A program made the position numbers and the translations under genes. From assembly GCF_002877365.1 (NCBI RefSeq), contig NZ_MCWZ01000268.1, positions 1 through 64,000 of the forward strand: a stretch of DNA of 64,000 nucleotides. The letters are read 5' to 3'. Positions 1-12,197 of this stretch are shown here, in pieces. This DNA comes from Vibrio sp. 10N.261.55.A7. GTDB taxonomy: Bacteria; Pseudomonadota; Gammaproteobacteria; Enterobacterales; Vibrionaceae. The notes under the pieces are model-generated. The model did not search any database, was not told the DNA's origin, and saw only the letters and a list, made by a program, of their open reading frames with translations. Each line of letters opens with the position of its first letter. Positions within the stretch are counted from its first letter, which is position 1.

Positions 1-115
1 TATTGATATTAAACGTTTTAGGTGTTTTTAAAAAAGACAAAAATCGATATATTTCGTCAATTACTTGTATTGTGATGATAGGATTGATGAATATTAAGGG
101 TGTGAGGAACAAATA

Positions 116-1651
116 TTGAGTCGTTTTTTTATCGTACAGCTGTTAACCATCGTGTTGCTGCTCTTTTATTCTGTTCCCAATTATCTCATGCCGATGTTCG
201 AGCCTGTTTGGTTGCAGCCTGCGATGGTTAAATTCCAGACACTTAGAAGCCAAGGGGTGGCAACGCTATTGGCTGAGCAATTGAATGCCCATTCAACGAA
301 TGAACAATCAACCCCAGTAAGTTTGGATAATTTCCCTTATTTAGTTGAGATGAAAAGATTCAACGACCTCAATCTGACTGGCGCTGAAGTGAGCCTACTG
401 AAAGAAGACGGTTTCATGGTCGACCCTGAATCGCTTAATTCTTATAAAATCGTGGATGCAGAACGAGTACTGGTCATCGGTAATCCTGATATTCCCAAGA
501 CATCGTCGATGTCGTACGCGCAACGAGAAATCATGGGGACGGTTTTTTTATTAACGCAGCGGTTTGAGCAGACACCGATGGATCAATGGAACGAATTGGC
601 CGAAGAGTTGACGGTTCATTTTCGTTACCCAATAGACATCCAATCATTCGATGAGATCGTCTTATCGAGTGAACAAAAGGAGCGACTTAAGCAAGGAGAA
701 CTCATGACAGAGCTGGTGCAAGGAGATCATGAGTATGGCTCAGGCATTGATCGCTTTTATCAACAATTGTCAAATGGGCGTGTTTTGGTTGGTGGCCCGA
801 TTGCACCCTTCATTTCAGATAAGTTAGCGATTGGAATAACCTCAGTTTTACTCGCGCTAGGTTTGTTCAATGCTTTGATGTTGATTTTGTGGCTGTTACC
901 TACCTGGCGCACTGCGAAATGTCTGGATCTTGCGACGAAACGGATCAGTGAGCAAATCTATACCAGTCGAATACCCATCTTATTTGCCAGTTTGCTCAAT
1001 CCCCAAGCACGAACCTTTAACAAAATGGCAGACAGAACTGAGCAGCTTTTTCATGACAACCAGCAGCTAATTTACACTTTTTCTAATGCTTTGAGTCAAC
1101 CCGTTGATGAAATTGAGCATCAATTAGATCTCTACAAAAAAGAGGTAGGGAATGAAGATAGGCTCGATCAAATGGAGCTTCTGCTTAACGATATGCGCGA
1201 TTTGACGTCATTGATTTTACTGATCGGGAAATTTAACCGAGAAAAAGATAATAGCCACCGCGTAACGATTGAACTGAGTGACTGGATTAATAGAAAAATA
1301 GCACACTGGCAGATTAGGCTTGATAGGGAAGTGACGCTTGTCGACCTCTCTGAGAAACAGTATTTTTCGAGCATGCAGACCTGTATCGACCCTTACTTCT
1401 TCGAGCAGGCCATTTTGAGCCTGTTGAGTATTGCAAAACCTTCGCCATACCCACTTGAGCTTTATGTGACGGCTAATCTCACACATACACAAATTAAGGT
1501 GTACCAATGTGAAGAGAGAGCCGACACTGACACGCTGAAGGGTATGAATGAGGAGTTTCTTTTTTTGCTTGCTCAACATTACAAAGGGCAAGTATTACAT
1601 GATCATTTGAATTGCTCAGTCATGTTGGAGGTGCCCAATGTTCTTTCGTAA
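116..1651 (+). CDS. Degenerate RstB-like sensor protein (pseudo-histidine kinase)
   Basis: A 511-residue inner-membrane sensor with one membrane segment at about residues 4-24, a periplasmic domain, a second membrane segment at about 236-262 and a HAMP-like linker ending in FNKMADRTEQL. It aligns by eye with the next gene along its whole length, but where that protein has the SHELRTP phosphorylation box this one reads SNALSQP, with Asn at about residue 324. The N, G1 and G2 ATP-binding boxes are also unrecognisable. Autophosphorylation is therefore unlikely; a role as a partner or ligand sensor for the downstream kinase is inference. The start is TTG with GAGGA just upstream. Its last 14 bases overlap the next start, which suggests translational coupling. 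There is no frameshift or internal stop, so it is a degenerate protein rather than a broken gene. Confidence 0.8.
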   Translation: MSRFFIVQLLTIVLLLFYSVPNYLMPMFEPVWLQPAMVKFQTLRSQGVATLLAEQLNAHSTNEQSTPVSLDNFPYLVEMKRFNDLNLTGAEVSLLKEDGFMVDPESLNSYKIVDAERVLVIGNPDIPKTSSMSYAQREIMGTVFLLTQRFEQTPMDQWNELAEELTVHFRYPIDIQSFDEIVLSSEQKERLKQGELMTELVQGDHEYGSGIDRFYQQLSNGRVLVGGPIAPFISDKLAIGITSVLLALGLFNALMLILWLLPTWRTAKCLDLATKRISEQIYTSRIPILFASLLNPQARTFNKMADRTEQLFHDNQQLIYTFSNALSQPVDEIEHQLDLYKKEVGNEDRLDQMELLLNDMRDLTSLILLIGKFNREKDNSHRVTIELSDWINRKIAHWQIRLDREVTLVDLSEKQYFSSMQTCIDPYFFEQAILSLLSIAKPSPYPLELYVTANLTHTQIKVYQCEERADTDTLKGMNEEFLFLLAQHYKGQVLHDHLNCSVMLEVPNVLS

Positions 1652-3257
1652 TCTATTGATTCAGCTCGTTCTGATTGTGTCGCTTTCTGCGTTTATCAGC
1701 TTTACTTTCCTTCTTCCCACCCTCAATTCACTTTGGCGATCTTATTCTGGGACTGCTCAAGAGATAGAAGCCTATCGATCTGCGGGCGTTGTTCATTTAT
1801 TGAAGGATTACCTAACCTCGATTGAAAAGGATAAACAGGCGGAAGCATTGGCTGGGCTGAAAAAACAATTCTACTCTTCGATGGTGCTGAAAGATAAAAC
1901 TCTGTTAGCTCTTACAGACCAGCAATCTCAACGATTAGCGAAAGGAGAATCACTTTATGATACAAGTTCATCGAAGCTTTACCACCAAATTGACGATGCG
2001 GGTACGACGTTAGTCATTGATGATCTCGATACTGCAGCCCCTATTCATCGAACGCCCCAAAAAGACGAGATCAGTGCTGTTTTTAATCTCATTACTCAAG
2101 ATTTAATGTCAGTAAAATCAACGCATTGGCCCGACAGAGTGTCAGAAATAAATGATTACTTTTCCGTCTCGATTGAAATGATGACGCTCAATGATGAGCG
2201 ATTTTCACAACGTCAACGTGATGCTCTAAGTCGTCATGAACTGGTGTCTGAATACCTAGACCCGATGGATCAGAGTGATATACCAGAATATATTTTTCAG
2301 AAAATGCCCAATAACGACAGTGTTATTGTGATTGGGCCGCTAAACAGTCTAATCGAAGAAATCATCAATGAACCATTATTGGTGCGTTTTGTCCTTCTTT
2401 TCGGGTTGTCGATATTCTTACCCTTGATCCTTTGGTTGCATCCATCGTGGACGACATCTTTTTCTTTGCTCAAAGCGACAAAACGTTTTGGTGATGGCAA
2501 CTTGTCTAGCCGTGCTGATATCGTAAAAGGCAGTAACCTAAATGGTCTAGCGACGACTTTTAACAAGATGGCGAAAAAAGTTGAAACACTGTATGAGAAC
2601 AATATATTGCTAAACAGTGCGGTATCCCATGAGTTGCGAACACCTCTGACGAGAATGGAATTCTCTATTGAATTGCTCAGATCACCATTGGCAAAAAATA
2701 AAGAGAAACAGATACACCGCATTGAAAATGCCATATCAGAACTGAGAGTCATGTCGGAAGAAATGGCGTTATACGCGCGTTTTGACCAAGAGCGACCTGA
2801 CTTTACGTTGGAGTCTACGGAGCTGACTTCTTGGTTTGATCGTATCAGTGAAGAGTGGGTGGGTGGTAAACCTGAAGTCGCTATTAGGGTAGACCATTTA
2901 TCGGGAGCGATTCATCTCCCTATCGAATCGTTCTACTTTCGAAGAATGATTGATAACGTGGTAAGAAACGCGAGTAAATACGCAGATAAAACCATTAATG
3001 TCTACACGCAGGTACTGAATGGGCAGTGCTGTATTACCGTTGAAAATGACGGTGTGACAATTGATGACGAATATAAAGAAAAAGTGTTTGAACCCTTTTT
3101 TCGATTGGATCACTCTCGTTCTAGGAACTCTGGCGGAACGGGATTAGGCCTGGCAATTGTGAAGCAAATTGTAATCTGGCATCATGGAAATGTATGGATT
3201 GAGGATGGTCCATCAGGGGGCGTAAGTGTTAAGATTACACTTCCCTTCAAAGTGTGA
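1638..3257 (+). CDS. RstB-like sensor histidine kinase
   Basis: A 539-residue membrane histidine kinase. It has an N-terminal membrane segment (about 5-27), a periplasmic sensor of some 220 residues, a second membrane segment (about 249-268), a HAMP region (KATKRFGDGNLSSRA) and a DHp box SHELRTPLTR with His at about 331. The ATPase domain has an N-box Asn near 444, ENDG for G1, and GGTGLGLAI near 499-507. The segment from LPLILWLHPSW to FNKMAKKVE resembles E. coli RstB closely, but the periplasmic part is about 100 residues longer than in RstB. The SD GGAGGT lies inside the end of the preceding gene. It should phosphorylate the response regulator encoded directly downstream. Confidence 0.88.
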   Translation: MFFRNLLIQLVLIVSLSAFISFTFLLPTLNSLWRSYSGTAQEIEAYRSAGVVHLLKDYLTSIEKDKQAEALAGLKKQFYSSMVLKDKTLLALTDQQSQRLAKGESLYDTSSSKLYHQIDDAGTTLVIDDLDTAAPIHRTPQKDEISAVFNLITQDLMSVKSTHWPDRVSEINDYFSVSIEMMTLNDERFSQRQRDALSRHELVSEYLDPMDQSDIPEYIFQKMPNNDSVIVIGPLNSLIEEIINEPLLVRFVLLFGLSIFLPLILWLHPSWTTSFSLLKATKRFGDGNLSSRADIVKGSNLNGLATTFNKMAKKVETLYENNILLNSAVSHELRTPLTRMEFSIELLRSPLAKNKEKQIHRIENAISELRVMSEEMALYARFDQERPDFTLESTELTSWFDRISEEWVGGKPEVAIRVDHLSGAIHLPIESFYFRRMIDNVVRNASKYADKTINVYTQVLNGQCCITVENDGVTIDDEYKEKVFEPFFRLDHSRSRNSGGTGLGLAIVKQIVIWHHGNVWIEDGPSGGVSVKITLPFKV

Positions 3258-3282
3258 TGTTATGGGCTAAGTGGAAGTATCA

Positions 3283-3981
3283 ATGAACCGTCAAAGTATT
3301 CTAGTTATTGAAGATGATATCGATATCGCAGAGTCGATATGTGACTACTTACAGCAAGAAGGCTTTAATGCGGTATATGAAGCGAATGGACTGCTGGCCG
3401 AGAAGAAAATATTGTCGGATCAACCTTCGCTAGTTTTACTCGATGTGATGCTACCAGGTAAAGACGGTATGAGCATTTGCCGCGATGTTCGTCCTTTTTA
3501 CAGTGGCTATATCCTGATGTTCACAGCCAAAGAAGATGACATTGACCAAATCGTTGGGTTAGAGGTTGGCGCAGACGACTACTTGATAAAGCCAGTGAAA
3601 CCTCGACTTCTGTTAGCCAAAATTAAGGCTTTCTTGCGCCGAAGCACATCCATTCCTGCTCAATCCACTCAGTCACTGATCCAGTTTGGATCGTTGTCGA
3701 TAGATTCGGTCAATCGCACCGTCACTCTAAGTGAAACAGACGTAAGCTTAACGAGTGCAGAGTTTGATTTGTTGGAAATTCTAGCCAAAAATGCAGGTCA
3801 GGTTCTATCAAGAACTCAGATTTCTATTGAATTGTTTGGTAGAGATTTTGACGGTTTAGAGAGAGGGATTGATAACAGAATTAGCCAGCTAAGGAAAAAA
3901 CTCCAAGATACCGATCATGTGAGTCCAAGGTTTAAAACCATTCGAAATAAAGGGTATGTACTGGCCCCAGGGGCCTGGTAA
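3283..3981 (+). CDS. RstA-like OmpR-family response regulator
   Basis: A 232-residue transcription factor. The receiver domain (about 1-118) carries the acidic pair E10/D11/D12, the phosphorylation site D54 in LLDVMLPGKDGMSICRD, and the conserved Lys in LIKPVKP. The C-terminal winged helix ends RNKGYVLAPGAW, very like E. coli RstA (RNKGYLFAPHAWE). The ATG at 3283 was chosen because GGAAG lies five bases upstream; an in-frame GTG at 3271 has no such site. It is the third gene of the operon with the two RstB-like sensors. Its targets are not shown by the sequence; the repeat upstream of the small ORF at 4567 is one candidate. Confidence 0.9.
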   Translation: MNRQSILVIEDDIDIAESICDYLQQEGFNAVYEANGLLAEKKILSDQPSLVLLDVMLPGKDGMSICRDVRPFYSGYILMFTAKEDDIDQIVGLEVGADDYLIKPVKPRLLLAKIKAFLRRSTSIPAQSTQSLIQFGSLSIDSVNRTVTLSETDVSLTSAEFDLLEILAKNAGQVLSRTQISIELFGRDFDGLERGIDNRISQLRKKLQDTDHVSPRFKTIRNKGYVLAPGAW

Positions 3982-4366
3982 GAGTTAGATAGAATCAATT
4001 GATTTTGCTGCGTGCATAGCTTTTCAATCAGCGAATTCTCTTGCTTGGGTGTTGACCAAGTCAATGAGGTGAGCGCTTCGGCCGCCGTTGTAAGCTCTGT
4101 ATCAAGGTTTAAGCTCGCTGCTTTCTCTGCTGTACTCGATGTCTCTGCTTTTAGGTCCAGCAGTTCTCTGGTCTCTTTTGACTCTTTTGTTATTTGTCGA
4201 GTCATCGCTTCTTCAAGCGCTTGTATTTTTCCCAACACTTCCGTGTGGTGCTTATCAGTGTTATCAGCCTGTCAGTAGCCATTTCACCGTTTTCTATCCA
4301 GCGAATTGGAAGTAGGTAAAAACCCTTATGAATAGCAAATCTTGCTGCAGCTATTGAAGAAGTGCA
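3915..4366 (-). pseudogene. Decayed reading frame of unknown family
   Basis: From the minus strand, 4238 to 3918 encodes a Glu/Ala/Lys-rich helical stretch (GKIQALEEAMTRQITKES, then a Ser/Thr/Leu-rich part). The same frame continues upstream only to a stop at 4274-4272. The next frame over is open from 4366 to about 4260 and reads FYLLPIRWIENGEMATD, so one frameshift near 4260-4275 would join the two. The 3' end runs 67 bases into the response regulator gene on the other strand. No family was recognised. It could be a gene remnant or chance open frames in AT-rich DNA. Confidence 0.3.
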
Positions 4367-4532
4367 TCAATACACGATTATTTTCATTTTTATATTTAAG
4401 AGAGTTAGCGTGGTGGTCGTAACGGTTTTGGGTCAAAAATGCGACAGCGAGAGAAAAAATTACAATGAATTAAGTCACTGTCATAAAAAGTTAATCTTAA
4501 TATGGTTGAGAAGTTTTCCGAAATTCATCATA

Positions 4533-4550
4533 TTGTAATGGTCTTGTAAT
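4533..4550 (+). promoter_or_regulatory. Direct repeat TTGTAAT, 11-bp period; candidate operator
   Basis: Two perfect copies of TTGTAAT start at 4533 and 4544, exactly 11 bp apart, ending 16 bp before the ATG of the small ORF at 4567. OmpR-family regulators typically bind tandem half-sites with this spacing. An isolated CTGTCATAAAA, which matches one half of a Pho box, lies at 4478-4488. Which regulator binds is unknown. Confidence 0.35.
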
Positions 4551-4566
4551 AAAACTCGGAGTGTCT

Positions 4567-4668
4567 ATGGAACATCAAGAAATGATTCAACCAACAAATT
4601 TAGGCGTTGTTAGCCGTACGTGTCTCTTTGCACTATTTTCTATCGCTGCCGTTCTGATTGCGATCTAA
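4567..4668 (+). CDS. Putative 33-residue single-span membrane peptide
   Basis: ATG at 4567 to TAA at 4666-4668 encodes 33 residues: a polar N-terminus (MEHQEMIQPTNLGVVSRT) followed by one hydrophobic helix (CLFALFSIAAVLIAI) that runs to the C-terminus. CGGAG sits seven bases before the ATG. A possible promoter is TTGAGA (4506-4511), 17 bp, CATATT. It is the only credible coding unit in the 1.3 kb between two two-component operons, and small membrane peptides are known to tune sensor kinases in enterics (for example SafA, MgrB). No homologue was recognised and expression is unproven. Confidence 0.5.
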   Translation: MEHQEMIQPTNLGVVSRTCLFALFSIAAVLIAI

Positions 4669-5253
4669 TTGCTCAAGTTTTCATTAGCAAAATCAACGTT
4701 GTAAAGAACGTGGTAAAGATAAGGAGAAGCCTATTATGAATGTTTGATCATTTTAGGTATCTTCTCTCCAAGTCTCCAAGTCTCCAAGTTTGTATTTCGT
4801 TTCGCTCATACACCTCCGTTTCCTCCTACTGATAATGCTTCTAACCAAATAGCTCGATATAAGAACCCGACAAAATGGTAAAAGATCAAGCCATTACAAT
4901 TATCTTCAAAGTAGATCCATCTTCTCAATTTCATTCGTGCTCAGAGTTTCTCATTTTTGTCCCGACAAATGCTTTTTGATGAAGTAACAGCCAGAAAAGC
5001 GATGGGTTAATGTTCACTAAGGTGCGAGTTCTCCTATATATCCTGGGTGTAAGTGCCTATTTCATATATGAAAAAAGGGCTTAGTTGAATCATTGATTTT
5101 ACTTTAGGCGGGTATAGTTCCATCATTAAAGTGAGCTGTTAGCTTGATGGTAAGTGGTAGGTTAGAGATGTGATCCGTATCTGTAACGCAATCAAACTTT
5201 ATAGAAATATCAATAAGTGATGAGCGGTCTAATCTATACACTACGTAAAACTT
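4669..5253. other. Intergenic stretch without recognised gene
   Basis: AT-rich DNA between the small peptide ORF and the GltR-like regulator. It holds a short tandem repeat, three copies of TCTCCAAG at 4765-4788. An unsupported 34-codon frame at 4875 lacks a ribosome binding site. Nothing else was recognised. Confidence 0.5.
4765..4788. repeat. Three tandem copies of an 8-bp unit (TCTCCAAG)
   Basis: Three perfect head-to-tail copies of TCTCCAAG. It lies outside any gene. Slippage-prone microsatellites of this size can vary in copy number between strains. Confidence 0.7.
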
Positions 5254-5273
5254 TTGTTGACCTTAGGTAACAA
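5254..5273. promoter_or_regulatory. Near-palindromic operator candidate before the GltR-like gene
   Basis: The 20 bases TTGTTGACCTTAGGTAACAA form an inverted repeat with one unpaired G, ending two bases before the ATG at 5276. A close relative occurs at 7491-7510 upstream of the sugar-binding protein gene. Placement over the ribosome binding site would suit autorepression. The binding protein is inferred, not shown. Confidence 0.4.
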
Positions 5274-5275
5274 AG

Positions 5276-6001
5276 ATGCGAACAAAAATGCATATCCTCG
5301 TCGTCGATGATGATTTGGAGATTCGCGAGTTATTAGAAGAATATTTAAATAAATCAGGGTTCTTGGTTTCTACTGTCGAAGATGGTGAAAGCCTGCATGC
5401 GTATATTGAGAATGAGGGATACCCTGATCTGATCTTGCTTGATGTAATGTTGCCTGGCGATGATGGCTTCTCTCTTTGCCAGCAGTTACGTCGAACCTCT
5501 ACGGTGCCCATTATTATGCTGACCGCGGTGTCGGATGAGACCGACCAAATTATTGGGTTGGAGATAGGTGCGGATGATTACATTGCCAAGCCGTTCAATC
5601 CAAGGCAGTTGATCGCCCGTATAAAAGCAGTGCTAAGACGAGTGCAGAGCAGTGAGCCTGCGTCTGAGGCCGTTTCAAAATCGATATCATTCGGTGACTG
5701 GGTGTTAGACACGTTAGCGCATCGAATTGAGAACATGGTGACTCAACAATCACACGATTTATCAGGCAGTGATTTTTCAATGTTGATGCTATTTCTCAGT
5801 CGCCCTAATGAAGTGCTTGATCGTGACACCATATCCATCGCCACGCGGGGGCGTGAGTCACTGCCTTTCGAGCGAGGTATTGATGTGCAGTTAAGTCGAT
5901 TGCGTAACCGTTTGGGAGACAGTGCCAAATACCCACACTACATTAAAACCATGAGAGGCAATGGTTACATTCTTGCTGTGCCTGTTCATCACGAAAGTTA
6001 A
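5276..6001 (+). CDS. gltR: OmpR-family response regulator, GltR-like
   Basis: A 241-residue regulator with a receiver domain (D11-D13 acidic pocket, D56 in LILLDVMLPGDDG, the conserved Lys in IAKPFNP) and a winged-helix DNA-binding domain ending IKTMRGNGYILAVP. It precedes a sensor kinase and then a four-gene GtsABCD-like sugar importer. That is the order found for GltR-GtrS and the glucose transporter in Pseudomonas, where the pair controls glucose uptake; the same role is inferred here. The ATG at 5276 has only a weak upstream site (TAGGT), and Met5 is an alternative start. Confidence 0.8.
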   Translation: MRTKMHILVVDDDLEIRELLEEYLNKSGFLVSTVEDGESLHAYIENEGYPDLILLDVMLPGDDGFSLCQQLRRTSTVPIIMLTAVSDETDQIIGLEIGADDYIAKPFNPRQLIARIKAVLRRVQSSEPASEAVSKSISFGDWVLDTLAHRIENMVTQQSHDLSGSDFSMLMLFLSRPNEVLDRDTISIATRGRESLPFERGIDVQLSRLRNRLGDSAKYPHYIKTMRGNGYILAVPVHHES

Positions 6002-6034
6002 AGGTGTCGCCTTTTTCGACAATTAGAGACAGTT

Positions 6035-7480
6035 ATGGGTTTAGAACAACGCGTAAAACCAAATTCACTTGTGGCGAGAACGTTGTTGCTGACGTTGTTA
6101 GCCGTCGTTATAGCGCAGGGTATTGCCACTTCTATTTGGTATTCTGAATCGAAACAGAAAGAGATAGAAGGGATACATTCTGCTTCTTCGAGTATGGCAA
6201 CGATGTTTGCCTCAACCGTGACCTTTTTCCAATCTCTTCCCTTTAATTATCGCCACATCGTGCTTGACCAGATACGAAATATGGGTGGAACGCGATTTTT
6301 TGTTTCGTTCAACAAAGAAAAACTGACGGTCGACCCCATCCCTAATACTCGCTTAAAGCTGACTTCTGTGAACGCGGTGACAGAGGTTCTTGAAAGTAAG
6401 CTCAATAAGGTGGCATCTGTTTCCGTTGATTTTTCGCGCCCAGAGCATTTAAGGTTGCTCAAAAATGACATCTACTTGAGTGATTTACCTAAGTCTTGGG
6501 CTCACCATACCCTAACGCTGGGTTCTATTAAGCCGCCTATTCTGGTGGTGCAGATTGAACTTGCGACGAATGAATGGCTCTACATTGCAGCCTTGCTTCC
6601 TGCCCCTTACGTCACACTGGATGATACGATTTTGGGTCGAGAGCAGATTATCTTCTTATTACTGTCTACCTTTATCTTGCTGTTATTGACTTATTTGCTT
6701 GTGAAGCGGCAGGTCAAACCCCTTAAAAGGTTGGCAAAAGCCGCTAACGAAATGAGCATGGACATCGATCAGCCACCGTTAAAAGAAGAAGGCGCGAGTG
6801 AACTGGTGACGGCGACTCGTGCGTTCAATCGCATGCAAAGTCGAATTCGTCGTTACGTATCCGATCGAGAGCACCTTTTTTCTGCCATATCCCATGATCT
6901 TAAAACACCGATTACTCGTCTTCGTTTACGCGCAGAACTACTTGAAAGTGATATGAAAAGAAATAAGTTCAATAAAGACTTGGATGAGTTGGAAATCATG
7001 GTGAAAGGCGCTCTGCAGTGCGTCAGAGATACCGACCTGCATGAAAATAACGCCCATATTGAAATAGCAGAAGTGATTCAGTCTGTGATTGAGGTGCATA
7101 ATCAACATGAAGAGAAAGTGACTTTCTATCCGATTGAGTTGAGGCCTATTGTGGCAAAACCGCTGGCGATTAAGCGTGTGCTGACCAATATCATTGATAA
7201 CGCCGTAAAGTATGGCCAAAGGGCTGAGGTAGTCACAATACAAACCGCAGAGTGGATAAAAATAGTGGTCACTGACCAAGGCAAAGGAATACCAGAAAAC
7301 AAGCTTGAAGCCGTATTTGAACCCTATTTCCGCATTGCAACAGATGACAGTGGGCATGGCCTTGGCCTAGGTATTTGTCGAAATATACTCCACGGACATG
7401 GCGGAGATCTCATAATTAGCAATGATGTAAAAGGCGGGTTAAAAGCACAAATCTATATACCACGAGGGTTAGAAGCTTAA
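6035..7480 (+). CDS. gtrS: Sensor histidine kinase, GtrS-like
   Basis: A 481-residue inner-membrane kinase. A membrane segment at about 14-31 is followed by a periplasmic sensor of about 170 residues and a second membrane segment near 205-224 (IIFLLLSTFILLLLTYLLV). Then come a HAMP domain, the H-box SAISHDLKTPITRL (His at about 287), the N-box IIDNAVKYG, G1 TDQGKGIP and G2 GHGLGLGICRN. All catalytic boxes are intact. It lies 33 bp behind its regulator and 153 bp before the sugar-binding protein gene. In Pseudomonas, GtrS senses 2-ketogluconate and 6-phosphogluconate; the ligand here is unknown, and the symbol is given on gene order and family only. Confidence 0.75.
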   Translation: MGLEQRVKPNSLVARTLLLTLLAVVIAQGIATSIWYSESKQKEIEGIHSASSSMATMFASTVTFFQSLPFNYRHIVLDQIRNMGGTRFFVSFNKEKLTVDPIPNTRLKLTSVNAVTEVLESKLNKVASVSVDFSRPEHLRLLKNDIYLSDLPKSWAHHTLTLGSIKPPILVVQIELATNEWLYIAALLPAPYVTLDDTILGREQIIFLLLSTFILLLLTYLLVKRQVKPLKRLAKAANEMSMDIDQPPLKEEGASELVTATRAFNRMQSRIRRYVSDREHLFSAISHDLKTPITRLRLRAELLESDMKRNKFNKDLDELEIMVKGALQCVRDTDLHENNAHIEIAEVIQSVIEVHNQHEEKVTFYPIELRPIVAKPLAIKRVLTNIIDNAVKYGQRAEVVTIQTAEWIKIVVTDQGKGIPENKLEAVFEPYFRIATDDSGHGLGLGICRNILHGHGGDLIISNDVKGGLKAQIYIPRGLEA

Positions 7481-7490
7481 TGTAACAAAC

Positions 7491-7510
7491 TTGTTACCTT
7501 GAGGTTACGG
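7491..7510. promoter_or_regulatory. Operator candidate matching the one at 5254
   Basis: TTGTTACCTTGAGGTTACGG has the same TTGTT-ACCTT-AGGT core as 5254-5273, with the internal G shifted. It is preceded by GTAACA-AACT-TGTTAC (7482-7497), a perfect 6-bp inverted repeat that shares its right arm. It lies about 125 bp before the sugar-binding protein start, a position suited to activation or repression by the GltR-like regulator. Confidence 0.4.
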
Positions 7511-7572
7511 TTTGTTTCAGAGTTTTTGAATGAGTTGGATAGACTCAATAGTGTTCGGGCATGAATGCTCGT

Positions 7573-7604
7573 TTACTTAAGTTAAGTAACACTCTTGAAG
7601 AGTG
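7573..7604. repeat. Two adjoining perfect inverted repeats in the gtsA upstream region
   Basis: TTACTTAA-G-TTAAGTAA (7573-7589) is directly followed by CACTCT-TGA-AGAGTG (7590-7604). Both are perfect and end 29 bp before the gtsA ATG. They could be operators or, if transcribed, mRNA hairpins in the leader. The 1-base spacer of the first favours a DNA site for a dimer; the 3-base loop of the second could form in RNA. Confidence 0.6.
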
Positions 7605-7633
7605 ACGTCTAATCCAATACATGGAAGATAAAA

Positions 7634-8881
7634 ATGAAAATTAATAAAACCCTACTTACTTTATCCCTCTTAGCTGCTACTCCTTTTTCTCAAGCTGGTG
7701 AAGTTGAAGTACTTCACTGGTGGACTGCGGGTGGTGAAGCAAAATCCGCTGCAGTTCTTAAAGAAATGCTAGAAGAGCAAGGCCACACCTGGAAAGATTT
7801 CGCCGTTGCTGGTGGTGGCGGTGAAAGTGCGATGACCGTACTTAAAACGCGTGCAGTATCAGGTAACCCACCTTCTGCCGCTCAAATTAAAGGCCACGAT
7901 ATTCAGGAGTGGGGCGGATTAGGCTTCTTAACGACATTAGACAATACGGCAAAAGCAGAGCAGTGGGATTCGATTCTTCCTTCGGTTGTCACTAAAGTCA
8001 TGAAGTTTGATGGCGAGTATGTGGCGGTTCCTGTCAACGTTCATCGTGTAAACTGGTTGTGGGCAAACCCAGAAGTACTGGAAAAATCAGGCGTTTCTGT
8101 ACCGACAACACTTGACGAGTTCTTCGTCGCGGCAGACAAAATCAAGGCAGCCGGTTTCATTCCTCTTGCACACGGTGGTCAACCTTGGCAGGACGCGACT
8201 GTTTTTGAAGCGGTGGCACTAGAAGTATTGGGCAGCGAAGACTACAACAAAGCATTTGTTGACCTTGATATGGATGTGTTGTCAGGCGACAAAATGACAC
8301 AGGTTTTCACGAAGTTTAAGAAAATGCGTGACTACATTGATTCGAATTCACCTGGCCGAGATTGGAATGTAGCCACATCGATGGTGATTAATGGTGAAGC
8401 CGCAATGCAAATCATGGGTGACTGGGCTAAGGGTGAATTTACGGCAGCAGGTAAAGTGCCAGGTAAAGATTACATCTGTGCGCCTGCTCCAGGGACGGAT
8501 GGCCAGTTCACATTTAACATCGATAGTTTTGCGTTCTTCGAACTCGGTGAAGGTCCAAATCAGAAAGCACAGCAAGATCTAGCAAAAACCATTCTGACCA
8601 AAGACTTCCAAGAAGTGTTCAACCTGAACAAGGGCTCAATTCCGGTTCGTTTAGATATGGACATGTCTAAGTTTGACCAGTGTGCTCTGGATTCTATGTC
8701 TACTTTCAAAGCCAGTGCCGACACGGGTGATCTAGTACCAAGTATGGCGCACGGCCTATCCACAACAAGCTACGCTCAAGGCGCGATCTATGACGTCGTC
8801 ACGAACTTCTTTAATGATCCAAAAGCGGATCCAAAAGAAGCGGCTGGCAAGCTAGCTAAAGCTGTGAAAGCAGCTATCTAA
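7634..8881 (+). CDS. gtsA: Sugar ABC transporter periplasmic binding protein, GtsA-like
   Basis: A 415-residue family 1 solute-binding protein. A signal peptide ([21 protein letters not shown]) is cleaved probably before GEVEVL. The mature start [20 protein letters not shown] and the stretch [19 protein letters not shown] are typical of the glucose/mannose-binding proteins of GtsABCD systems. It captures sugar in the periplasm for the permeases encoded downstream. GGAAG precedes the ATG. It is separated from the permease genes by 157 bp containing a stem-loop, which fits the common excess of binding protein over permease. The exact sugar is inferred from family and context. Confidence 0.85.
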
Positions 8882-8942
8882 CATTTCCGTAGCCTTACTG
8901 CTGAATCATTCAGTATGAAAGGCCTCAGTAATACCCCCAAGT

Positions 8943-8969
8943 GTGGATAGGTTGTGATGACCTATTCAC
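8943..8969 (+). promoter_or_regulatory. Intercistronic stem-loop between gtsA and gtsB
   Basis: GTGGATAGGT (8943-8952) pairs with ACCTATTCAC (8960-8969), nine Watson-Crick pairs and one G-U, around a 7-base loop. There is no immediate U-tract, so it is more likely a transcript-stabilising or pausing element than a terminator. It probably sets the gtsA to permease expression ratio. Confidence 0.55.
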
Positions 8970-9038
8970 GCTTCTTCAAAGCGCTTTTTGTCTGTGTAAA
9001 CAAGAGCGGTTTGGGTTGTTATATAACAAGGAAACGTT

Positions 9039-9962
9039 ATGGAGCATGTTTTGACTCAGTCAACTAAGAAGCCAGCAGTAAAGCCTAGCTTTGCCGATAG
9101 GCTGCAGAATTGGCTACCAAAGATTGTACTTGCCCCGACAATGCTCGTCACTGTGGTGTGCATATACGGTTACATTTTTTGGACAGCCACACTTTCATTC
9201 ACTAACTCTCGATTTTTACCCAGCTTCAACTTTGTTGGTTGGGCTCAGTATGAAAAATTAATGGAAAACGACCGCTGGATTACATCGATCACCAATCTTG
9301 GTCTCTTCGGTGTGTTATTCATGTTGGTTGCGATTTTACTTGGAGTCGGGCTGGCGATATTCCTTGATCAGAATATACGCAGTGAAGGCGCGATTCGAAC
9401 GATCTATCTCTACCCAATGGCCCTGTCATTTATTGTCACGGGTACCGCTTGGAAATGGATTTTGAACCCAGGCCTGGGTATCGAAAAAATGATGCACGAT
9501 TGGGGCTTTATCGATTTCAAATTTGATTGGCTCGTAAACTCTGAAATGTCGGTTTACACCTTAGTTATCGCAGCGGTTTGGCAATCGTCAGGCTTCGTGA
9601 TGGCGATGTTTCTAGCCGGTCTACGTGGCATTGATTCATCCATTATTAAAGCGGCGCAGATTGATGGTGCAGGGCTACCCTCTATCTACCTAAAAATTGT
9701 ATTGCCTTGCTTACGACCTGTGTTTTTCAGTGCGGTGATCATTACCTCGCACATTGCGATTAAGAGCTTTGATTTAGTCACGGCGATGACCGCAGGTGGC
9801 CCTGGTTATTCTTCAGATCTACCGGCGTTATTCATGTATGCGCACTCATTTACTCGTGGCCAGATAGGGTTAGGGGCGGCAAGTGCAATGATGATGCTTG
9901 CAGGTATTTTAGCGATTCTAGTGCCTTATCTCTATTCTGAACTTAGGGAGAAAAAATCATGA
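9039..9962 (+). CDS. gtsB: Sugar ABC transporter permease, GtsB-like
   Basis: A 307-residue membrane permease of the MalF/UgpA type with six predicted spans. The first is VLAPTMLVTVVCIYGYIFW at about 31-49. The cytoplasmic EAA-type loop reads AAQIDGAGLPSIYLKIVLPCLRP. It pairs with the next permease to form the channel for the sugar bound by the preceding gene's product. The TAA-linked spacing is operonic: its end overlaps the next start by four bases (ATGA). The start is ATG with AAGGAAACG upstream. Confidence 0.85.
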   Translation: MEHVLTQSTKKPAVKPSFADRLQNWLPKIVLAPTMLVTVVCIYGYIFWTATLSFTNSRFLPSFNFVGWAQYEKLMENDRWITSITNLGLFGVLFMLVAILLGVGLAIFLDQNIRSEGAIRTIYLYPMALSFIVTGTAWKWILNPGLGIEKMMHDWGFIDFKFDWLVNSEMSVYTLVIAAVWQSSGFVMAMFLAGLRGIDSSIIKAAQIDGAGLPSIYLKIVLPCLRPVFFSAVIITSHIAIKSFDLVTAMTAGGPGYSSDLPALFMYAHSFTRGQIGLGAASAMMMLAGILAILVPYLYSELREKKS

Positions 9963-10816
9963 GTAACCAACTCAATTTTGGTCGCCTGTTTATTTACTCG
10001 ACACTTATTTTCTTCTGTTTAGTTTACTTGATGCCACTGTTTGTCATGGTGATCACCTCATTCAAGACCTTGCCTGACATTAAGGCGGGTAACCTAATGA
10101 GTCTGCCAAAAGAATGGGTATTCGATGCCTGGTATAAAGCATGGGACAGCGCGTGTACAGGCGTGAAATGTGAAGGGGTGAAAGGCTATTTTTGGAATTC
10201 TTTTCAAATGGTTGTACCCGCAGTCGCGATTTCAACATTGCTTGGCGCGTTCAATGGTTACGTGGTGACAAAGTGGCAATTTAGAGGTTCAAACCTATTT
10301 TTTAGTCTGCTTCTATTCGGATGCTTCATTCCGTTTCAGGTCGTTCTACTTCCAATGGCTGCCGTGTTAGGCAAATTGGGCTTAGCCAACACCACAACAG
10401 GTTTAGTGTTTGTTCACGTGGTTTATGGCATGGCATTCACAACTTTATTCTTCAGAAACTTCTATATGAGTATTCCTGATGAATTGGTTAAAGCGGCGAA
10501 ACTTGATGGGGCTGGTTTCTTCACCATTTTCTTCAAGATTTTGTTACCGCTTTCTACGCCGATCATCATGGTCACGGTTATCTGGCAATTCACCGCAATC
10601 TGGAATGACTTCCTATTTGGTGTGGTCTATTCAGGCTCTGAAACTCAACCTATCACAGTGGCTTTGAATAACCTGGTGAATACCAGTACAGGCATTAAAG
10701 AATATAACGTTGATATGGCTGCGGCCATCATCGCAGCACTGCCGACATTAGTCGTGTATGTCTTAGCAGGAAAATACTTTGTTCGAGGCCTAACGGCGGG
10801 ATCGGTAAAAGGATAA
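9959..10816 (+). CDS. gtsC: Sugar ABC transporter permease, GtsC-like
   Basis: A 285-residue permease of the MalG/UgpE type. There are six predicted spans, the first at about 12-32. The EAA loop is AAKLDGAGFFTIFFKILLPLSTPI, and the C-terminus GLTAGSVKG is typical of the family. It starts on ATG overlapping the stop of gtsB, so the two subunits are translationally coupled and made in equal amount. It lies five bases from the ATPase gene. Confidence 0.85.
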   Translation: MSNQLNFGRLFIYSTLIFFCLVYLMPLFVMVITSFKTLPDIKAGNLMSLPKEWVFDAWYKAWDSACTGVKCEGVKGYFWNSFQMVVPAVAISTLLGAFNGYVVTKWQFRGSNLFFSLLLFGCFIPFQVVLLPMAAVLGKLGLANTTTGLVFVHVVYGMAFTTLFFRNFYMSIPDELVKAAKLDGAGFFTIFFKILLPLSTPIIMVTVIWQFTAIWNDFLFGVVYSGSETQPITVALNNLVNTSTGIKEYNVDMAAAIIAALPTLVVYVLAGKYFVRGLTAGSVKG

Positions 10817-10821
10817 TTATT

Positions 10822-11934
10822 ATGGCAACTTTAGAACTCAAGCAGATCCGCAAAACCTACCCAAAAGCGGACCAAGAAACACTAAAAGGCATCGATATCA
10901 GTATCGACTCGGGTGAATTCTTAATCTTAGTCGGGCCGTCAGGTTGTGGTAAATCGACACTGATGAACACCATCGCTGGCCTTGAAGGCATCAATGAAGG
11001 TGAAATTGTTATTGATGGAACAGACGTTGCGAGTGTCGAACCCAAAGATCGTGATATCGCAATGGTTTTTCAATCTTATGCGTTGTACCCAAATATGACC
11101 GTACGAGGCAATATTGCCTTTGGTTTGAAGATTCGAAAAATGCCGCAAGTTAAGATCGATGCAGAAGTGAATCGCGTGGCTGAGATGCTGCAAATCGAAC
11201 AGCTTCTTGACCGAAAACCGTCACAGTTATCAGGTGGACAGAGACAGCGTGTCGCGATGGGGCGTGCACTCGCTCGTCGACCTAAGTTGTACCTTTTTGA
11301 TGAACCGCTATCGAACCTTGATGCAAAACTGCGTGTTGAGATGCGTCACCAAATTAAACGCTTACACCAGAAACTCAACACGACCATCGTTTATGTTACT
11401 CACGATCAGATTGAGGCGATGACCCTTGCCGACCGTATTGCGGTAATGAAAGACGGTGAGTTGCAGCAGTTGGGTACGCCTAAAGAGATCTACAACAAAC
11501 CGAATAATATGTTTGTGGCTGGCTTCATGGGCTCACCGTCGATGAACTTTATCAAAACCGTGGTCGATTTGGATGATGAGAATCAGCCAATCATCCGTGT
11601 GACCGGGTCTAACGATCAGGCGCATCATATTAAGCTACCACAATCGATGCGTGAGCAAGATGGCAAAGAGGTGGTGATTGGTTTAAGGCCTGAGCATATC
11701 AGTGACTCACAAAGTGAAGATACAACGGCTTCAACGCTGTTGGATCTGAAACTCGAAGTTCTAGAGCCGACAGGGCCCGATACGATTGCGATGATCAAAG
11801 TGAATGATCAAGAAGTCGCTTGTCGCCTCTCTCCTGAATGCGAAGTGAGCGTGGGTCAAACTGCGCCGCTGCACTTTGACCTTTCAAAGGCGGTTTTCTT
11901 TGATGCGAATACCGAGCAACGCATCGATTTTTAA
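10822..11934 (+). CDS. gtsD: Sugar ABC transporter ATPase, GtsD/UgpC-like
   Basis: A 370-residue ATPase of the MalK/UgpC/MsmX group. It has Walker A GPSGCGKST (about 38-46), the Q-loop VFQSYALYPNMT, the signature LSGGQRQRVAMGRAL, Walker B LYLFDEPLSNLDAKL and the switch His in VYVTHDQIEAMT. A C-terminal TOBE/OB domain (about 240-370) contains GLRPEHI. It powers the GtsBC channel. It is the last gene of the importer operon; a strong terminator lies 260 bp downstream. Confidence 0.9.
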   Translation: MATLELKQIRKTYPKADQETLKGIDISIDSGEFLILVGPSGCGKSTLMNTIAGLEGINEGEIVIDGTDVASVEPKDRDIAMVFQSYALYPNMTVRGNIAFGLKIRKMPQVKIDAEVNRVAEMLQIEQLLDRKPSQLSGGQRQRVAMGRALARRPKLYLFDEPLSNLDAKLRVEMRHQIKRLHQKLNTTIVYVTHDQIEAMTLADRIAVMKDGELQQLGTPKEIYNKPNNMFVAGFMGSPSMNFIKTVVDLDDENQPIIRVTGSNDQAHHIKLPQSMREQDGKEVVIGLRPEHISDSQSEDTTASTLLDLKLEVLEPTGPDTIAMIKVNDQEVACRLSPECEVSVGQTAPLHFDLSKAVFFDANTEQRIDF

Positions 11935-12197
11935 AAGACATAACATTAAGTAGAGAGTTCGTTTTAGAGGTGCACCTTCAAATTGGTCGTGAGGTATTCC
12001 TCAGTATGTCATGGCTGAAATATTCGGGGGAGTTTTCAGGTATTTTATGCTTGGGGGAAGGTGCACTTCGCTTTAATCGTCGCGTTATTTAAAAGGACAA
12101 GAAAATCCTAATGATAAAAGCGTAAATAGCGTTAATACTATAGGGTGCCCATAAAAATAACGGTGTCTAACAAACACAGGGCAAAACACCTAAAACT

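Follow-up and report, generated by a model that had tools for sequence, protein, structure and literature searches.

A Histidine Pseudokinase Maintained next to Its Kinase Paralog in a Vibrio Two-Component Operon

The first gene of the analyzed window (a 64,000-nucleotide stretch of a Vibrio contig) codes for a sensor histidine kinase (HK) paralog that has lost its catalytic residues and lies directly upstream of a kinase retaining them. On balance, we regard its product (ORF1) as a maintained pseudokinase that would serve as a second, non-catalytic sensor subunit, pairing with the adjacent kinase and shifting its activity. As the pair recurs in two distantly related genomes, the dead copy probably contributes to the function of the sensor and is not simply a gene in decay.

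Structure of the Operon and Loss of the Kinase Motifs

ORF1 (116..1651, forward strand; 511 aa) starts with TTG, has no internal stop, and is preceded by a GAGG (104..107, +) that is its likely ribosome-binding site. The start of the window is the end of the contig, which begins 115 bases upstream of ORF1. The protein has the layout of a sensor kinase: a first transmembrane segment (TM1), a periplasmic region of ∼205 aa, a second transmembrane segment (TM2), a HAMP-like region, a DHp-like region, and a shortened ATPase-like part, with borders that were read from the alignment with the kinase, the structure models being of low confidence. The periplasmic sensor region (residues 32–236; 209..823, +) has 55–57% identity to the orthologs described below, and the HAMP-like and DHp-like regions (residues 263–378; 902..1249, +) are under the strongest constraint in the protein. 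The ATPase-like remnant (residues 379–511; 1250..1648, +) lacks the N, G1, F, and G2 boxes, is ∼20 residues shorter than in the kinase, and is only 35–43% identical to the orthologs.

Asn324 of ORF1 (codon AAT, 1085..1087, +) aligns with the phospho-accepting His331 of the kinase (CAT, 2628–2630), the local motifs being SNALSQP and SHELRTP. The next position, a Glu in the kinase that we take to be the catalytic acid, is Ala in ORF1, and the Thr four residues after the His is replaced by Gln. No His is found at the aligned DHp site. Two other His residues lie in this helix region, H313 and H335, 11 residues before and after the site, and both are replaced in the two orthologs (Tyr/Tyr and Ser/Lys, respectively), which have Lys at the His site itself. 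A Pfam search at E ≤ 1 detects no family in ORF1, and its closest NCBIfam model is RstB (NF007898; 93.7 bits, E = 1.4e-26, residues 139–439), below the cut-off of 478 bits. With neither the phospho-accepting His nor the N, G1, and G2 boxes, ORF1 lacks the features of a functional kinase. No single frameshift conceals an ATPase domain, because stops crowd the other two frames of 1151–1650. The intact frame of 511 codons, the Asn at the His site, and the missing boxes were all described in the initial annotation, made from the sequence alone, and are borne out here. The same annotation stated that the two adjacent proteins align over their full length. This is accurate for the architecture but not for the similarity: BLASTP aligns residues 3–420 of ORF1 with the kinase across 436 columns at 27% identity (E = 1e-32), and the ATPase third aligns weakly, with 18–22% identity in the three genomes that have the pair.

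The mean pLDDT of the structure models is 62.9 for ORF1 and 56.5 for its HAMP-DHp-CA part, both of low confidence. The best Foldseek matches of the two models in PDB include HK cores (CpxA 4biu, EnvZ 4cti, and RetS 6dk7), with best E values of 1.9e-5 (ORF1) and 3.9e-7 (HAMP-DHp-CA), but for the top PDB match the TM-score to the query is only 0.24 and 0.37, with an rmsd above 10. In our reading of the model, the ATPase remnant would fold in the order helix-strand-strand-helix-strand-strand, which is that of the usual fold minus the ATP lid. A PDB sequence search with a two-row pseudokinase profile gave no matches. HK architecture, lost catalytic residues, and a gene under selection (see following) together place ORF1 among histidine pseudokinases of the DivL/RocA kind, the structural matches being weak.

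The partner kinase (1638..3257, +; 539 aa) is RstB-like and has HisKA and HATPase_c domains above the Pfam cut-offs (E = 1.1e-9 and 6.7e-23). It has the features of a functional kinase, that is, the His and the N and G2 boxes, with a changed G1 box (3045..3062, +) that reads NDGVTI instead of DxGxG. Its gene starts within that of ORF1, and the 14-base overlap noted initially (1638..1651, +, stop included) is identical in its 14 letters at all three loci. A GGAGG inside the pseudokinase gene (1627–1631, +) is the likely Shine-Dalgarno sequence of the kinase. The third gene codes for a response regulator of the RstA/OmpR type (3271..3981, +), whose likely start is the ATG at 3283, because the orthologous regulator of Aliivibrio sp. 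NORP241 begins there; it has 83% identity to both orthologs. The identification of the system as RstB/RstA, also made initially, stands as far as the closest models are concerned and fails at the cut-offs: the kinase scores 267.8 bits with NF007898 (E = 2.1e-79; cut-off 478), and the regulator 236.2 bits with RstA (NF007977; cut-off 330). RstB/RstA is thus a loose label, because all three proteins score below the cut-offs and the same genome contains another RstB-like kinase (545 aa, canonical motifs; locus L004, G000:C305).

Downstream of the regulator, ∼1 kb (4239–5262) contains no ORF of 80 aa except the end of one at 4278, and by eye one can recognize a 33-codon frame with a hydrophobic end (4567–4668). 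It is followed by a second, ordinary OmpR/EnvZ-like pair (5276–7480) and, directly after, by an apparent set of sugar-type ABC transporter genes (7634–11934, by eye). An Rfam search of positions 1–12000 gave no matches.

Distribution, Phylogeny, and Selection

The pseudokinase has a patchy distribution. In a profile search of 329 genomes of the family, using ORF1 and the first ortholog and scoring the best four candidates per genome, only the window's genome and the Aliivibrio sp. MAG NORP241 had hits with E = 0. Ordinary single kinases come next (best E about 1e-48), and the five more genomes that pass E = 1e-20 all have kinases with the His. Of the 329 genomes, these two were also the ones in which a profile of the partner kinase reached E = 0, followed by full-length matches to single kinases in G022 (∼1e-82) and G104 (∼1e-81). 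Among 394 genomes sampled from the order (best three candidates per genome), 16 matched, one of them with a third ortholog (G329, from another family; E = 3.6e-251); the His check in this sample covered the matches other than 11 weak partial ones (about 3e-22 to 9e-21, the best at 2e-23). Only one of the 11 genomes of the family of G329 has the ortholog.

The orthologs of NORP241 and G329 have 53% and 56% identity to ORF1 and intact frames. The initial annotation had proposed a search for the same three-gene order elsewhere. The order pseudokinase-kinase-regulator is found in all three genomes, together with the TTG start, the GAGG before it, the 14-base overlap, and the likely Shine-Dalgarno sequence of the kinase, and neither ortholog is truncated. 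The genes downstream of the three-gene unit differ among the three genomes. This and the patchy distribution (2/329 and 1/11 genomes) suggest transfer or repeated loss.

No further pseudokinase was found in the families of the single-kinase relatives, either in a set of 24 genomes, where the sole match is the kinase of G447, or in a sample of 150 genomes, where each of the three matching kinases retains the His. Similarly, no pseudokinase-like ORF adjoins the single kinases of G022, G104, G333, G447, G536, and G743, some of these views being short; at locus L082 only about 1.2 kb of contig precedes the kinase. A single-sequence scan of the genome contigs gave 18 pattern matches and no relatives, and a tblastn search of plasmids gave only partial, distant HK matches in six records.

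The phylogenetic tree included 60 proteins (50 loci, L003–L053 minus the duplicate L035, and ten further rows), of which 57 have the His, the exceptions being the three pseudokinases. The pseudokinases form one clade and their partner kinases another (each 100/100), the two clades are sisters (95/87), and five single-kinase relatives branch beside the pair (90/86). The stem of the pseudokinases is twice as long as that of the partner kinases (2.49 vs. 1.28), and the tree program flags meeting long branches that include both clades. When the partner kinases are removed, the pseudokinases join the five single-kinase relatives (99/97), with the long-branch flag again. The branching order differs between the pseudokinase and kinase triplets. 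A recent local duplication is rejected, given the 27% identity of the two proteins and sister clades that are older than the three lineages.

Rates of evolution were compared for NORP241 versus G329, whose dS (about 1.3) is the lowest of the three pairs; in the other two pseudokinase pairs, those with the window gene, the distance is too large and the dS values (infinite and 2.78) are unreliable. The dN/dS check of the His-lacking copy, another proposal of the initial annotation, shows purifying selection: for the whole protein it is 0.16 (bootstrap 0.11–0.22), against 0.10 for the kinase. By region, it is 0.07 (0.03–0.14) in HAMP and DHp (kinase 0.05), 0.15 in the sensor and transmembrane part (kinase 0.12), and 0.28 (0.10–0.49) in the ATPase remnant (kinase 0.10), where dN is 0.36 and 0.16, respectively. 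In no region did any of 1,000 bootstraps reach a dN/dS of 1. As far as a comparison limited to three genomes can show, selection acts on the sensor and, most strongly, on the signaling and dimerization part, and less on the dead ATPase part. In simulations of neutral evolution the frame stayed open in 1/500 runs at 0.1 substitutions per site and in 0/500 at 0.2 and above.

These data leave very little room for a decaying duplicate kept by chance, which we consider highly improbable. Decay would account for the shortening of the ATPase part and for its evolving faster than that of the kinase. However, there are three intact orthologs in two families, with a conserved start and overlap, and dN/dS is well under 1 in every region. 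A dS of about 1.3 for the closest pair of loci likewise argues against very recent transfers. Simple decay is thus rejected by the intact orthologs and by purifying selection, and the proposal of a retained pseudokinase in the initial annotation is well supported by both and by the shared operon.

A Putative Second Sensor Subunit

If ORF1 works with its neighbor, the retained parts suggest how. The pseudokinase keeps the membrane anchor, the periplasmic sensor, and the HAMP/DHp module, without the phospho-acceptor, the catalytic acid, and the ATP site. It would be translated just before the kinase, the 14-base overlap coupling the two, and mixed dimers of pseudokinase and kinase would form through the transmembrane segments, HAMP, and DHp. 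A ligand of the pseudokinase's own might then tip the kinase between its autokinase and phosphatase states. We favor a brake in the resting state: assuming that a CpxA-like kinase autophosphorylates in trans, as CpxA and EnvZ do, a mixed dimer, one His and one ATPase short, would be unable to charge itself. Such a braked dimer may still dephosphorylate the regulator, and a ligand or a switch of partners would release the brake. RetS is described as restraining GacS in this manner, through a DHp-DHp heterodimer (PMC12148439).

The pseudokinase–kinase heterodimer, which the initial annotation had proposed, is suggested indirectly by the constraint on HAMP and DHp, by one face of DHp helix 1, by the co-occurrence of the two genes, and by their overlap. 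The pseudokinase might instead prefer itself, because its identity with the kinase in DHp is low (20–26%). Two published cases also speak against pairing, as far as their descriptions go: the cytoplasmic domain of RocA homodimerizes, its transmembrane part being the one that binds CsrS (PMC6635533), and a truncated ChrS pseudokinase evolved in the laboratory gave no significant heterodimer signal in a two-hybrid assay (PMC9491836). An assay of this type also missed RocA-CovS, as a false negative (PMC7028121).

The faces of DHp helix 1 were compared among the three genomes. Counting from the His site, the three kinases share the same residue at offsets 0, 3, 6, 7, 8, 11, 14, and 15, and all eight vary in the three pseudokinases, six of them because the window's protein alone differs. 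Conversely, the pseudokinases keep offsets 1, 2, 4, 5, 9, 10, 12, 13, 16, and 17, eight of which are also kept by the kinases. In helix 2, 17 of the 18 residues from 360 to 377 are invariant among pseudokinases. Positions H+2, H+5, and H+9 presumably point into the core of the bundle, and H+7 and H+11 are, we assume, those where the regulator docks. With three sequences per group, the pattern is suggestive of one helix 1 face being kept and the other released, as for a dimer subunit that is done with phosphate. It also bears on another possibility, that a homodimer of the pseudokinase senses the phosphorylated regulator by binding it and acts back on a kinase. This has a model in DivL, a His-less HK fold described as binding DivK∼P (PMC5361649), and it would fit the conservation of DHp observed here. 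However, the helix 1 positions kept by the kinases, including the two presumed docking positions, vary in the three pseudokinases, and we find this alternative unlikely.

About as unlikely, or slightly more so, is that the pseudokinase acts by itself, as a membrane scaffold or assistant (for example, of a neighboring outer membrane protein), the kinase being a mere transcriptional neighbor. In two of the three loci, those of the other genomes, a divergent outer membrane β-barrel gene (OMP_b-brl, PF13505) adjoins the operon (L065, 7170–7745; L080, 9526–10119), and 133 of 191 aligned residues are identical between the two proteins. This gene, which gives the stand-alone role its appeal, is likely a regulated target or an input of the system. 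No homolog was found in the window's genome, a weak negative as the contig starts 115 bases upstream of ORF1. The gene overlap, the co-occurrence with the kinase, and the constraint on HAMP and DHp all point to the kinase as the partner of ORF1.

The main rival to a braking subunit is an activating one, with a kinase that has little or no activity on its own and fires only with the help of the pseudokinase. We give it a real but clearly smaller chance. The G1 boxes of the three partner kinases read NDGVT, NDGSL, and NDGTS. The D and second G of DxGxG are thus gone, whereas all 54 further kinases in the comparison have DxGxG. The live copies thus look as if they depended on their partner. On the other hand, their remaining motifs are intact, and active kinases, VanS among them, can have a G1 box of the NxGxxI type, so that the altered box does not make the partner kinases inactive. 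The sign of the effect is not readable from the sequence. Activation has precedents, by the published accounts, in FasB-FasC (PMC12675982) and in RocA, which raises CovR phosphorylation via CovS (PMC7028121).

The same box invites a bolder reading, which we hold only tentatively: an obligate asymmetric receptor with two sensors, in which one copy would be a dedicated DHp/sensor subunit and the other, without a canonical G1 box, would depend on it. If so, an old single duplication would have produced a receptor with two periplasmic inputs, one catalytic site, and a stoichiometry set by gene overlap. Whichever way the subunit acts, an altered ATP box in live partners, found only alongside the dead copy, is an unexpected and testable sign of co-adaptation.

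Comparison with Known Systems

Among bacterial sensor kinases, pseudokinases are recognized as a class but have received little study. The share of HKs with a residue other than His at the His site is given as about 1% (PMC5361649), and pseudokinase partners of sensor kinases are already known (RocA, FasC, and DivL). RocA of group A Streptococcus resembles ORF1 in being a membrane-bound HK-like protein without kinase function that acts via CovS/CsrS (PMC7028121, PMC6635533). By its description, however, it is an orphan regulator with six transmembrane segments and a dispensable His (H246), whereas ORF1 lacks the His, has two transmembrane segments, and overlaps the gene of its kinase. The FasB-FasC-FasA system has the same composition of two HK-like genes and a regulator, and FasC is a proposed pseudokinase with a two-hybrid heterodimer signal (PMC12675982); as reported there, FasC keeps a phosphorylated His (H246), and FasB and FasC have six transmembrane segments each. 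In Pseudomonas aeruginosa, RetS is an HK that inhibits another, GacS, through a DHp-DHp heterodimer that blocks autophosphorylation (PMC12148439), but it is described as a hybrid kinase (PMC12189002) and not as a His-less paralog overlapping the gene of its partner.

DivL of Caulobacter, a His-less pseudokinase of HK fold that controls the true kinase CckA (PMC5361649), differs, according to that source, in having Tyr at the site, in binding DivK∼P, and in coupling two pathways. The ChrS pseudokinase of evolved Corynebacterium glutamicum is a dead HK that raises output via its live paralog HrrS (PMC9491836); as presented in that work, it arose from a frameshift in the laboratory, and the partners come from two separate systems. 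RstB/RstA provides the closest curated models for all three proteins, below the cut-offs, and the single-kinase relatives inspected differ in having no pseudokinase neighbor.

Among the best literature matches, mostly outside subscription journals, no report was found of a His-less paralog encoded in one operon with its live twin and one regulator, the two paralogous genes overlapping. Hence, with pseudokinase partners already known, the pair described here represents a new form of a known theme. With dead and live copies in a single overlapping operon, a single regulator, and genes short enough for transfer into a laboratory strain, it would offer a compact system for studying the integration of two inputs by a kinase dimer and the consequences of losing one catalytic half.
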